This document shows positions 1 to 18,750 of a DNA stretch of 64,000 nt, one piece after another. The notes under the pieces were generated by a model. That model worked only from the letters and a program-made list of their open reading frames with translations. It had not been told where the DNA came from and searched no databases. This DNA is from Paraburkholderia ginsengisoli NBRC 100965 (lineage in GTDB: Bacteria > Pseudomonadota > Gammaproteobacteria > Burkholderiales > Burkholderiaceae). The DNA lies in the NCBI RefSeq assembly GCF_000739735.1, contig NZ_BBJF01000004.1:992001-1056000 (forward strand), written 5' to 3'. Each line of letters starts with the position of its first letter. Position 1 is the first letter of the stretch. A program made the position numbers and the translations under genes.

Positions 1-2764
1 GCAACGCGCCGAGTTCGAGCGCGCGCCACACCGCACCGGTCGCGCCGCCGGGCAGCTCGGGACTCGCCGCGGCGACGCGGCGGACGCGCTCGAACATGGC
101 CTCGTCGTCTTCTTCGGTATCGGTGTCGAGCAGCACGGGCAGCAAACGATCGGCGAGCGCATCGCGTCCCGCGTAGTCGAGATCGAACGGTTCGGTGTCG
201 ACCAGTTCGCCCTGCGCATCCGACAGCACGATGCCCAAGCGGTCGCGCAACAGCGAGCGCGCCGGATGACGCCAGAAGCGCACGAATTCGTCGAACGCGA
301 CTGGCGCCGCGTCCTCCGGCGGCAGCGGCTTGTCAAAGAACGGCGCGGCGGCGGGATGGTTGGGCGCGGCCAGCAGCGTCGCCAGTTCGGCGCGATCGCT
401 GTTGTAGGTGAACAGCTCGGGCTGCGATGAGAAGTAGTCGGATGCGAACGCCTGCAACGGATGATCGACGACGAACGCATGCCGTGCGCGCTCCACCTCG
501 GCCGGACTCGCGTCCGCGCCCGCCGATGCCTGCCCGAGATAATCGAGCAGTTCGTCGACGAGAGCCGCTGGCGGCAGCGGCGCGTTATCGCGAATGCTGC
601 GGCCCGTGTACGCGATGAAGAGCCGCTCGCGCGCGGCGAGCAGCAGATCGAGAAACAGATTGCGCTCGTCATCGCGGCGCTGGCGGTCGCCGGCTTTGCC
701 GAATGCGGCCATCAGGTCGAACTCGTCGGCGCGTGCGAGGCTCGGCAGCACGCCGTCGTCCATGCCGAGCAGACAGACGATGCGGAACGGCAAGCCGCGC
801 AAGCTGGTGAGCGACGAGAATGTCACGCTGCCCCAAGGCACGCCGCCGCGAGCGGGGTCGTCGAGCGCTTCGGTAAGCGCGCCGCGTACCACCGCGGCGG
901 GCAGCATCACATCTTGCGCGCCGGCTTGCATCGCGTCGCTCATCTTGTCGATCGCGTCGCGCACGGCGGCGAGCGAGTCCGCAAATTCGACGCCGCCGTC
1001 GAAGCACTGACCGAGCGTTTCGAGAAGCAGCTGCGACCAGTCGGCGGGCGTGCGTTCAACTGCGCAGCGGGCCGCGAAACTATCGATGTCGTCGACAAAA
1101 CGCGACAGGCGGCCGAGCAATTCGGCGTCCGAGCCGTCCGCGCCTTCAACCGGCAGCCACGCATCGACCGGTTCACCACCGTCGGGCATCGCATAGCCGA
1201 GGTACAGCCGCGTCAATGCATCCGAGAACGTATGGCGGGCAATCGGCACGTGTTCGCCGGTCGGTTCAAGCGGCGCGAGGCCGCGCCGCGCACCGGCTGC
1301 GGCGAGCCATTCCTGCGCGGCTTCGAGCGAGTTCGCATCGATCCCGTAACGCACGGCGATCGCATCGACCCGCAGCCATTCGATCAGCTCCGGCGCGCCC
1401 ACGCTACGCTCGGGCAACGCCAGCCACTCCAGCAACAGACGCGCGACCGGATTGGCCTGCGACGGCGGCAAGCCGGTGATCCGATACGGAATGCGGCGCG
1501 TGTCGCCCAGGGGCGTGGTGCCGAATACCGCGTCGATCAACGGGCCGGCCGCAGCGAGATCGGACACGGCGACCAGCACGTCGGACGGCTGCAAGTCGTC
1601 GAACTCGTCAAACCAGCCGAGCAGCCGGTCGTGCAGCACTTCGAGCTGCCGCGACAGGCTGTGGCAGACATGAACTTCGATACCGCGTTCGATCGGCCAC
1701 TCGTCGGCGTCGGCTTCGAGGCGCAGATCGAGAATGCCGTTCTGCACGGCGGCGAGCCAGCTCGGCTCCGCGTTCTCGGTGAAGTCGCCGGTCTCGCCAG
1801 ACGCGGCGCTCTCGGTCAACTCATGCAGCATGTGCAACTGCGCCTGCGTTTGACGGCCCCATTCGGCAAGCAGCGGATGGCCCACTTCCTGGTAGTCGAG
1901 CTGGCCCGCGGCGTCGAGGGCCTGCACGCGCCCTTCGCTCACCACGTCGAACCAGAACTCGCGGCATGGGTTCATCACGTACAGACGCACATCGACCCAG
2001 CGCGACAGCGCGCGCAACAACGCGACGTGCAGCGGCGGCATGGTCGGCAGCGCGAACACACTGACCGCTTCGGGCCATTGCGCGTTCGAGATCGCTTCGA
2101 GATCGAGCGTGCCGATTTCCTCCAGGAAGCGATACGCGGGCGGCAACGCGGCAGCAGACGTCTGCGCATTGCCCGCGACTTGCGCCAGCTCGCCGAGCAC
2201 CGCGCGCCACAACGCGGCCTGCCAGCGTTCGTCCTCACGCGCCGCGTCGCTCGCGCCGGTCAGACGCGGACCGTTGTCATCCGCCGCGCTGCTCGCGAAG
2301 ATCGAGCCGCCCTTTTGCCATTGCAATAGCCACTCGGGGCGATAGGTCAGATAGTGGTCGAGCACGGTCGCGACGCGCCGCGCGAGTTCGTAGCGCATCG
2401 ACGCGTCCGCCGCGTCGAGATAGGTGCGCAGACGCGGCGACGCATTCCACGGCAGCGCGTCACCGGTTTCACCGAGCAGCCGGTAGCAGCGCCACACGAG
2501 CCGGTCAGGTGCGAACGGCGAATGCCTCGGCACTTCGATCACGCCGCCGATCTGCGCCCACAGCCATTGCGCGAGATAACCAAAGTTAACGTTCGCGCAG
2601 ATGCCCTGACGATTCGCGATATCGAGCTCGAGCCGCCGCCTCACCGCCGCACTCGGAACGATCACCGGCTGCGCGGTCCACGGATCGGACGGCGCGTGCG
2701 CGAGGTCGTCGAGCAGTGCGCCGACAAGCGTTTCATAGCGGTTGGAGTAGAAAAGCTGGAGCAT
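1..2764 (-). CDS. recC: RecBCD exonuclease V subunit RecC (partial, 3' end off the left edge)
   Basis: Leftward reading frame open from an ATG at 2764 to the window edge, giving about 921 residues of a protein that is about 1120 long in E. coli. It starts MLQLFYSNRYETLVGALL, like RecC. Two RecC hallmark stretches are visible: TFSSLTSLRGLPFRIVCLLG near residue 650 and DRQRRDDERNLFLDLLLAAR near residue 695, followed by GRSIRDN. RecC is the non-catalytic scaffold of the RecBCD helicase-nuclease, which processes double-strand ends for recombination and recognises Chi. recB and recD would be expected beyond the left edge. It is divergent from the FUSC gene across about 200 bp. A 622-codon plus-strand frame inside it is a shadow. 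Confidence 0.95.
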   Translation of the reverse strand, partial: MLQLFYSNRYETLVGALLDDLAHAPSDPWTAQPVIVPSAAVRRRLELDIANRQGICANVNFGYLAQWLWAQIGGVIEVPRHSPFAPDRLVWRCYRLLGETGDALPWNASPRLRTYLDAADASMRYELARRVATVLDHYLTYRPEWLLQWQKGGSIFASSAADDNGPRLTGASDAAREDERWQAALWRAVLGELAQVAGNAQTSAAALPPAYRFLEEIGTLDLEAISNAQWPEAVSVFALPTMPPLHVALLRALSRWVDVRLYVMNPCREFWFDVVSEGRVQALDAAGQLDYQEVGHPLLAEWGRQTQAQLHMLHELTESAASGETGDFTENAEPSWLAAVQNGILDLRLEADADEWPIERGIEVHVCHSLSRQLEVLHDRLLGWFDEFDDLQPSDVLVAVSDLAAAGPLIDAVFGTTPLGDTRRIPYRITGLPPSQANPVARLLLEWLALPERSVGAPELIEWLRVDAIAVRYGIDANSLEAAQEWLAAAGARRGLAPLEPTGEHVPIARHTFSDALTRLYLGYAMPDGGEPVDAWLPVEGADGSDAELLGRLSRFVDDIDSFAARCAVERTPADWSQLLLETLGQCFDGGVEFADSLAAVRDAIDKMSDAMQAGAQDVMLPAAVVRGALTEALDDPARGGVPWGSVTFSSLTSLRGLPFRIVCLLGMDDGVLPSLARADEFDLMAAFGKAGDRQRRDDERNLFLDLLLAARERLFIAYTGRSIRDNAPLPPAALVDELLDYLGQASAGADASPAEVERARHAFVVDHPLQAFASDYFSSQPELFTYNSDRAELATLLAAPNHPAAAPFFDKPLPPEDAAPVAFDEFVRFWRHPARSLLRDRLGIVLSDAQGELVDTEPFDLDYAGRDALADRLLPVLLDTDTEEDDEAMFERVRRVAAASPELPGGATGAVWRALELGAL

Positions 2765-16874: not shown

Positions 16875-16937
16875 CGGTCGCACGCGCTGTCATCGCGGGC
16901 CGAACCTGTCCCCAGAAGCGACGCGAATGTTAGACTT

Positions 16938-16995
16938 CGGCGCTGGAGATGGCATTCTCCATTAACCGCCCCTCGGGCTGATGATGCCTGCTTCG
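16938..16995 (+). promoter_or_regulatory. fluoride riboswitch (crcB motif)
   Basis: GGCGCTGGAGATGGCATTCT begins the aptamer at 16939. Conserved parts are the TGGAG/CTCCA stem capping ATGGCATT, the ATTAACCGCC segment and the 3' GGCTGATGATGCCT strand. This closely follows the known fluoride-sensing crcB motif, including the pseudoknot-forming bases. The gene downstream encodes the fluoride channel CrcB. A GGCATC downstream (about 17018) could pair with the aptamer's 3' GATGCC and serve as the alternative structure. Confidence 0.92.
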
Positions 16996-17077
16996 CCCGG
17001 ATGACTGCGGACGCGGCATCGCCTCGCCCACACTCAGCCCGGTTTCGTAGACACCCGGTTTTTGCCAGGCCTCTTCC

Positions 17078-17458
17078 ATGTATTGGTCCTTCCTCGCGGT
17101 CGCCATTGGCGGCGCGCTCGGCTCGCTGTTTCGGTGGTTTCTCGGCTTCCGTATGAACGGCATGTTTAGCGGCCTGCCGCTCGGCACGCTCGCCGCCAAC
17201 GTGATTGCCGGCTACATCATCGGCATCGCGATCGCGGGGTTCGCCCGCGCGCCGCAGATCGCGCCGGAATGGCGGCTTTTCGTCATCACCGGCCTGATGG
17301 GCGGACTCTCCACCTTTTCCACTTTCTCGGCCGAAGTCGTGCAGCGTCTGCAGGACGGGCGCCTCGGCTGGGCCGCGGGCGAGATCGTCATTCACGTCGG
17401 CGCGTCGCTGGCAATGACGATTCTCGGGATCGCGACGGTTTCGCTGCTGTCGCGTTGA
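17078..17458 (+). CDS. crcB: fluoride channel CrcB/Fluc
   Basis: A 126-residue, four-helix membrane protein. Family motifs are [13 protein letters not shown] near the N-terminus, [15 protein letters not shown] with the conserved Asn, and [17 protein letters not shown] with the Phe and Ser/Thr residues that line the fluoride path. Fluc channels are dual-topology dimers that expel fluoride. The length is typical. The preceding riboswitch would switch the gene on when fluoride accumulates. Confidence 0.95.
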
Positions 17459-17484: not shown

Positions 17485-17516
17485 AAAAAAAAGGCGTCAC
17501 GTTGCCGTGACGCCTT
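17485..17516 (-). terminator. strong intrinsic terminator, leftward, distal of a tandem pair
   Basis: An 11-bp perfect stem (17491-17501 with 17506-17516) with a TTGC loop. Read leftward it is followed by eight T residues (the A-run at 17485-17492). Read rightward there is no T-tract after the stem, so it is oriented for a leftward transcript rather than for crcB. Confidence 0.8.
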
Positions 17517-17552
17517 AAAAAGTTCTAGCCATTCCGAGGGCCGTGCTAGAAC
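17517..17552 (-). terminator. second intrinsic terminator, leftward, proximal of the pair
   Basis: GTTCTAGC (17522-17529) and GCTAGAAC (17545-17552) form an 8-bp stem. Read leftward it runs directly into TTTTT. Together with the hairpin at 17485-17516 it makes a tandem leftward terminator. Confidence 0.65.
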
Positions 17553-17750
17553 CTGAGAGACGGTATTCGAAAGTTGGGCCGCGAAAAGCGGAAGCCACAA
17601 GGGCTATGACGGTGGGCGGTGAGAATAGACCAGCTATTGCGTCGACCAACTGCGCGAACCGTGGCGAATTCAGAATAGTGAGAGGCAGAGTCTGAAATCG
17701 TCTTTCGAAATGAGGTTCCATTTTTTATGGTTATGCTGACTAAGTCAAGC
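17517..17750 (-). ncRNA. candidate small RNA or short mRNA ending in tandem terminators
   Basis: A leftward unit that no recognised gene explains. A TTGACT -35-like hexamer (17743-17748) with AT-rich sequence 15-17 bp on (A-run about 17720-17727) could start a transcript of about 200 nt. Local hairpins include CCGC-ttttc-GCGG, AGCC-cttgt-GGCT and TTCAGA/TCTGAA. TTCGAAAG near the 5' end complements CTTTCGAA near the 3' end. The palindrome TGACT-t-AGTCA overlaps the -35. A 68-codon frame (17515-17721, MEPHFERRF) spans it but has weak GC3 bias for this genome, no Shine-Dalgarno, and a start overlapping the putative -10. An RNA is favoured over a protein, without certainty. Confidence 0.4.
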
Positions 17751-17913: not shown

Positions 17914-18750
17914 ATGATCCGACCCATGCCCTCGCGAACCGCAGCCGACCCGGCCAAAGACAAGGACAGCCCGGGCGATGAGGTCACCGCGCTCGCCCGC
18001 GGGCTGACCGTGCTCCGCTCGATCGCCGCCGCCGACGCGCCGCTCAGCAATCGCGAGCTGACCGAGATGACCGGCATTCCCAAACCGACCGTTTCGCGTA
18101 TCACCGCCACGCTGGTCGGAACCGGCTTCCTGTTCCGTCTGCCCGACAGCGAGCGCTTCGTGCTGACCTCGTCGGTGCTGGAATTGAGCAACGGCTTTCT
18201 GCGCAACTTCGACATCCGGGCGCGCGCCCGGCCGTTCCTCATCGAACTCGCCGAACGCACCGCGCTGTCCGTGCATCTGGCCGTACGCGACCGTCTCGAC
18301 ATGGTCGTGATCGACGCGATCCGGCCGCGCTCGGCCGTGCTGGTGTCGCGTCTCGAAATCGGCTCGCGCATGAATCTGAGCCACACGGCGGTGGGTCGCG
18401 CGTACCTCGCGGCGCTCGCGCAGCCGGAACGCGACACGCTGCTGGCCAGCCTGCAGGTGGCCGAGGGCGACGAGTGGGGCCACATCGGCAGCCGGCTCGC
18501 AAGCGGGCTGCAAGACGCCATCGAGCGCGGTTTCGCGATCGCCACCGGCGAGTGGTACAACGGCCTGAACGCGATCGCGCTGGGCTTCGTCGGTCCGTCG
18601 GGCGAGCGCTATGCGGTCAATTGCGGCGGCTCGGCGGATCAATGCCCGCGCGACTGGCTCATCTCGCGCGCCGCGCCCGCGCTGCTCGAATGTATCGGCA
18701 AGATCGTTCTCGAGATCGGCGGCACCCCGGGGCGCCGCCTCGACACCTGA
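17914..18750 (+). CDS. IclR-family transcriptional regulator
   Basis: A 278-residue regulator. A winged HTH occupies about 25-90 (NRELTEMTGIPKPTVSRITATL). The IclR effector domain follows (about 100-265), with DAIRPRSAVLVSRLEIGSRMNLSHTAVGRAYLAAL and a C-terminal LNAIALGFVGPSGE segment typical of the ligand-binding pocket. Start may be ATG 17914 or ATG 17926; neither has a clear ribosome-binding site. No catabolic operon lies beside it, so its ligand and targets cannot be inferred from context. The 160 bp upstream is AT-rich, which is unusual here. Confidence 0.9.
   Translation: MIRPMPSRTAADPAKDKDSPGDEVTALARGLTVLRSIAAADAPLSNRELTEMTGIPKPTVSRITATLVGTGFLFRLPDSERFVLTSSVLELSNGFLRNFDIRARARPFLIELAERTALSVHLAVRDRLDMVVIDAIRPRSAVLVSRLEIGSRMNLSHTAVGRAYLAALAQPERDTLLASLQVAEGDEWGHIGSRLASGLQDAIERGFAIATGEWYNGLNAIALGFVGPSGERYAVNCGGSADQCPRDWLISRAAPALLECIGKIVLEIGGTPGRRLDT

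Follow-up and report, generated by a model that had tools for sequence, protein, structure and literature searches.

The window analysed here, a stretch of 64,000 nucleotides, carries two leftward-facing hairpins between crcB and a divergent gene for an IclR-family regulator. A scan of the whole window against Rfam returned two matches. One is the fluoride riboswitch RF01734, at 16936-16997 on the plus strand (55.6 bits, against a threshold of 34) and ahead of crcB at 17078; a fluoride riboswitch preceding this fluoride exporter gene is a known arrangement. The other is RF02871 (ncS54, Burkholderia sRNA 54), on the minus strand at 17563-17485, with an E-value of 4.6e-18 and a score of 83.6 bits, where the curated cut-off is 43 bits. 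The alignment covers positions 1-79 of the 79 in the model, i.e., its full length, and the two-hairpin layout of the family, in which the second hairpin is an intrinsic terminator, is present in the window copy. The features of the locus are listed in Table 1.

Table 1. Features of the ncS54 locus, in window coordinates.
Feature	Position	Strand	Basis
ncS54 sRNA, predicted full transcript of ~230 nt	17485..17714	-	Conserved promoter and terminator; start placed at about 17714, give or take a few nt; U-tract at 17485 contains the 3' end
Conserved ncS54 core, as in RF02871	17485..17563	-	83.6 bits; cut-off 43
-35 box TTGACT	17743..17748	-	CTTGAC kept in 133/136 unique loci; promoter scan
-10 box AAAAAT (AAGAAT in Burkholderia), spacer 17	17720..17725	-	Promoter scan; position conserved
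P1, 5' strand UUCGAAAG	17702..17709	-	Compensatory changes across species
Lineage-variable domain closed by P1	17574..17701	-	Predicted RNA length varies by species
P1, 3' strand CUUUCGAA	17566..17573	-	Compensatory changes across species; in the minimum-energy fold of the window RNA
CU-rich 5' seed CCGUCUCUCAGG	17552..17563	-	Common to orthologues and sibling copies
Hairpin 1 with invariant loop ACGGCCCUCGGAAUG (second seed)	17522..17553	-	31-nt core identical in 30/30 loci; stem changes in siblings
Intrinsic terminator hairpin, followed by U8	17491..17516	-	Terminator scan; stem covaries
Divergent IclR-family regulator gene	17914..18750	+	Divergent and upstream in 127/127 loci; PF01614, PF09339

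The homologue in Burkholderia cenocepacia J2315 is one of 15 sRNAs with strong expression in biofilms of that strain (Sass, Kiekens and Coenye, 2017; PMC5688073). It was detected by differential RNA-seq (dRNA-seq) and qPCR (PMC5688073), and lies on chromosome 1 at 1179680..1179807, with a length of 128 nt (PMC5688073, Table 1). By qPCR it was 3.1-fold up in biofilm and 2.0-fold up upon starvation, and more than one band was reported, which was ascribed to an alternative start (PMC5688073). We found no published function for ncS54, and no target of it in the main texts consulted. An earlier note, made from the sequence of the window, had proposed a small RNA here, possibly an undescribed one. 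The small RNA is borne out by the full-length match, by a conserved promoter, and by the experimental detection of the B. cenocepacia homologue; the second part was wrong, because the ncS54 family was already reported in 2017 (PMC5688073).

Among 59 surrounding genomes, RF02871 scores above its cut-off in all 35 that belong to the genus of the window; no other family sampled from the order passes it. The covariance search across Burkholderiaceae that the earlier note had called for, conducted on 249 genomes, places the RNA in 6 of the 25 genera of the family. The exact 38-nt core is found in at least 119 records, from Burkholderia, Paraburkholderia, Caballeronia, Trinickia and Mycetohabitans; some loci from the window's genus are identical to named Paraburkholderia records, for example L009 and L049 (P. 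bannensis), and L028 and L105 (P. sartisoli), and on this basis the window is assigned to Paraburkholderia.

The promoter of the window copy is conserved, while the transcript itself has been demonstrated only for the B. cenocepacia homologue (PMC5688073). The TTGACT hexamer noticed earlier indeed looks like a promoter element: it lies at 17748-17743, is followed by a -10-like AAAAAT 17 nt further on, and belongs to a strongly conserved block, CTTGACTTAGTCAGCATAACCATAAAAAATGG, which precedes the core, as such or as a close variant, in 133 of the 136 unique loci. We assign to 17748-17720 a predicted sigma-70-type promoter that reads leftward. This block is separated from the core by about 95 nt in Burkholderia, and by 123 to 379 nt in the Paraburkholderia and Trinickia loci examined. 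The start of the RNA was placed at a distance of 34 nt from the -35 box, counted from its first base, an offset that was chosen with the published 128-nt length in mind; it corresponds to the expected start site, 6 nt past the -10 box, and results in 128 nt, the published length, in B. cepacia, B. lata and B. seminalis. Because the offset is calibrated on that length, the exact start is one that we infer. For the window this procedure would put the start near 17714, with an RNA of about 230 nt, and the previous estimate of about 200 nt from the TTGACT promoter was therefore about right. A near-perfect 11-bp palindrome, TGACTTAGTCA, overlaps the -35 box (17737-17747, minus strand). It is present in most Paraburkholderia and not in Burkholderia, and is a possible regulator site.

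From 5' to 3', ncS54 consists of UUCGAAAG, the variable domain, CUUUCGAA, the CU-rich seed, hairpin 1, a U-rich linker and the terminator. The core folds better than shuffled sequences (z -5.61), as does the 230-nt span (z -3.88). The CUCUC part of the 5' seed is unpaired with a probability of about 0.95. In hairpin 1, a stem of 10 bp carries a loop of 15 nt, and short pairs within the loop partly close it. All 30 loci chosen by the Rfam model alone have an identical 31-nt hairpin core; the hairpin is unchanged among orthologues, and compensatory change is seen in the sibling copies described below, from CUAG/CUAG to CUGG/CCAG. The hairpin at 17516-17491 is a strong terminator in the terminator scan, with 11 pairs and a loop of 4, followed by TTTTTTTT, and its stem covaries across species (GCGUCACG/CGUGACGC, GCGCCACG/CGUGGCGC, GCGCUACG/CGUAGCGC). 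In two loci, L056 and L125, the invariant hairpin is kept and no terminator is recognisable downstream of the core.

Both hairpins had been correctly located and oriented before, and had been read as tandem terminators. This reading holds for 17516-17491, which is canonical, and fails for 17552-17522: with only CTTTTTAA after it, hairpin 1 counts as a structured element and not as a second canonical terminator. What lies in the window is thus one invariant functional hairpin, followed by a terminator. The position of the pair, convergent to crcB, could also suit a mere terminator for convergent transcription running past that gene. We regard this as highly improbable: U-tracts are found on the leftward strand only, crcB is usually absent from the locus, and a terminator would have no need of the invariance seen in the loop and the 5' seed. 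In addition, a discrete sRNA has already been detected for the B. cenocepacia homologue (PMC5688073).

The complement between TTCGAAAG and CTTTCGAA pointed out by the earlier note proved to be a real long-range helix, here referred to as P1, which is maintained by compensatory changes. Beside UUCGAAAG/CUUUCGAA, the paired strands read UUCGACC/GGUCGAA, UUUGACGGA/UCCGUCGAA and UUCGACAGG/CUUGUCGAA in other loci, and CGAAACAUCGUU/AACGAUGUUUCG in Burkholderia. The position of the 3' arm varies by one or two bases across species. Because of this shift, and because the aligner placed no gaps, column-wise covariation is unsuited to P1; in place of MAFFT alignment and RNAalifold columns, we therefore compared the pairing of the native arms at each locus with that of swapped or shuffled arms. 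Runs of at least 8 pairs are formed at 54% of the loci by the native arms, as against 31% when arms are swapped between species and 4% when one arm is shuffled. The summed energy of the native arms is 5.3 SD below that of permuted pairs (permutation z -5.3), and of 119 distinct RNAs, 109 are predicted to fold with the helix. In the window RNA, P1 is within the minimum-energy fold with a pair probability of only about 0.29, so that the contact may be a weak one, or one under regulation. The RF02871 model does not include P1.

The inferred length of ncS54 ranges from about 130 to 418 nt across species, and the difference is located in the domain that P1 encloses. The window RNA and that of B. 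cenocepacia have in common the full-length core, the invariant hairpin, the promoter arrangement, and a terminator with a long U-tract; the former is nevertheless longer, at about 230 nt versus 128 nt, because its P1-enclosed domain is longer and unrelated in sequence. B. cepacia-like genomes combine the 128-nt length with a divergent iclR as in the window.

The gene for the regulator is the constant partner of ncS54. Wherever a locus contains an IclR match it is upstream and divergent (127 of 127 loci, Burkholderia species included). The nearest named group of the encoded protein is PcaR/PcaU/PobR, although it scores under the cut-off of that group. By contrast, crcB is an incidental neighbour, found near ncS54 in no more than 21 loci, its distance differing between them; in the window it happens to lie downstream, unlike in B. 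cenocepacia. The former description of the RNA as lying between crcB and the IclR gene therefore misleads as regards crcB, whereas the observation that no leftward gene feeds the hairpins holds. As ncS54 is divergent from iclR, with some 27 bases between its end and that of crcB, it might be thought to control a neighbour, either as an antisense RNA to crcB or as part of the iclR leader region. This is very unlikely, in that the RNA stops before crcB, and hence is not antisense to a gene that is in any case nearby in so few loci, while it runs away from iclR and has a promoter and a terminator of its own. In L049 and L079, of the P. bannensis group, a possible iclR start is preceded by ACCTGAGAG, with 9 nt complementary to the 5' seed; this length is at chance level, and the match is at most a hint of feedback. 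A cluster of ACCTGAGAG in genome G034, considered as a tandem array of sibling copies, turned out to be an unrelated repeat with no Rfam match.

An open frame of 68 codons does exist at 17721-17515, as had been reported, and could in principle encode a small protein. The earlier note had cast doubt on it, and our data argue against a gene. Its ATG falls within the -10 box and precedes the inferred start of the RNA; over 128 loci the frames relative to the core are split 51/50/27, with lengths from 2 to 417 codons, and conservation of the reading frame was sought across these loci and not found. The product has no match in Pfam or NCBIfam. A protein-coding gene here is close to inconceivable.

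Family membership, the conservation of promoter and terminator, the invariant hairpin, P1, the linkage to iclR and the absence of a conserved protein are thus computational observations. With very high confidence, the feature is the form that ncS54 takes in Paraburkholderia, and it is predicted to be a small regulatory RNA that stands alone. To the Rfam description of this sRNA, highly conserved in Burkholderia and its relatives, the analysis adds a conserved promoter, a long-range helix and a variable domain; it also identifies a regulator gene as the constant neighbour, a group of siblings, and candidate target mRNAs by name.

In the mechanism that we propose, ncS54 would be transcribed leftward from the promoter at 17748-17720 up to the intrinsic terminator at 17485, and would act in trans, probably with Hfq. 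A U-rich linker and a U8 tail, as present here, fit the general pattern of Hfq-dependent RNAs. The CU-rich 5' seed CGUCUCUCAGG and the loop seed GGCCCUCGGAAUG would pair with ribosome-binding sites, and translation would be blocked. Both seeds are conserved, largely unpaired, and complementary to ribosome-binding-site-like sequence, and we consider pairing in trans to such sites likely.

Which mRNAs would be paired is a more tentative matter. A genome-wide search with each seed found matches close to an ATG at 12 places for one and 2 for the other. The longest seed matches ahead of long genes are those of hutF (ACCTGAGAGACG, 12 consecutive nt to the 5' seed) and hutU (CATTCCGAGGGCC, 13 consecutive nt to the loop seed), and both genes are within one operon for histidine utilisation; the identities of the HutU and HutF proteins were confirmed by NCBIfam. 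As a chance control, 1,306 possible start regions from other loci were examined: 5 reach at least 9 nt, one of them 10, and none 11. In four related genomes, G012, G022, G030 and G031, the hutU matches measure between 10 and 13 nt (two of 13 nt, one of 11 nt and one of 10 nt), and hutF matches of 9 to 10 nt are found in G012 and G022; in G024, hutU is matched over 12 nt by the other seed. None of the other hut genes reaches 9 nt in any species examined. The match is confined to part of Paraburkholderia, where the species that share it are related and thus not independent, and it was not found in Burkholderia, in the other genera tested, or in genomes without ncS54; predicted hut pairing is thus a difference between the window RNA and the Burkholderia genomes tested. 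The hut operon is a credible lineage-specific target, pairing with hutU and hutF being such as to damp histidine breakdown in the RNA's own lineage; as an identification of targets we hold this to be possible, with the balance somewhat against it. Two other candidates, a Flp pilin gene and a chemotaxis receptor gene, were rejected, their matches of 9 nt each being of a length that occurs by chance. An excess of seed matches over a reversed-pattern control in the 59 genomes was likewise dropped as evidence, because the counts include RNA genes read backwards and the seeds resemble Shine-Dalgarno complements.

Since the loop is also invariant where the hut match is absent, hut cannot explain this invariance. 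An alternative is that the invariant loop of ncS54 and of its siblings is bound by a protein and not by mRNA, the RNA being a protein sponge or scaffold. In its favour, the same loop sequence is retained in several genera, although a target such as hutU shows no corresponding conservation, and the loop motif CUCGGAA recurs in most sibling copies. On the other hand, there is only one GGA, and it lacks the A that a CsrA site would be expected to have two bases ahead of it; the CU-rich strand, which suits pairing to ribosome-binding sites, is equally conserved. That we know of no protein partner of ncS54 also counts against protein binding, which we consider unlikely. Pairing of the seeds to mRNA is the interpretation we favor.

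Many genomes contain further, weaker matches to RF02871, up to a dozen in one genome. The best of these siblings carry CUCUCAGGUUCUGGC, the CCCUCGGAAU loop, GCCAGAA and a terminator. A -10 box of the TAAT type often sits immediately upstream, so that there is no space for P1. In the window genome one sibling is above the cut-off (G000:C45:203380-203455, 45.2 bits). Short siblings at L150-L169 (e.g., 381-455 in L150 and 381-456 in L164) have the seeds and the loop as in ncS54. Judged by these shared elements, the siblings look like a family of short RNAs with both ncS54 seeds, and we found no description of them in the literature. The fullest form of our proposal, tentative and somewhat less probable than not, is that ncS54 heads this undescribed family and, in one Paraburkholderia lineage, silences the hut operon by targeting hutU with one seed and hutF with the other, the hutU seed switching between lineages.

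A known family of similar layout is the Betaproteobacteria toxic small RNA, RF02278, to which the double-hairpin RNAs ncS03, ncS05, ncS27 and ncS62 belong. Like ncS54, these RNAs combine a terminator hairpin with a CU-rich stretch on the 5' side and another hairpin whose loop is CU-rich, occur as several siblings per genome, and are predicted to pair with ribosome-binding sites. Their sequence is CUCCUCC, however, as compared to CUCUCAGG and CCCUCGG in ncS54; RF02278 has no match at the ncS54 locus even at E up to 1 (cut-off 50 bits), and the window genome holds separate RF02278 copies of its own. In L160, a sibling at 378-456 is located about 50 nt from a weak RF02278 match (507-568, minus strand), on the same strand. 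Two siblings, at 352-424 in L151 and 353-425 in L158, align to BjrC68 (RF02353, Bradyrhizobiaceae) with 36.3 and 35.1 bits, below the cut-off of 39. The loop of BjrC68 differs from that of ncS54, and the window copy has no match to it. The likeness probably reflects a similar layout and not kinship; possibly, the ncS54 siblings and BjrC68 form a wider superfamily.
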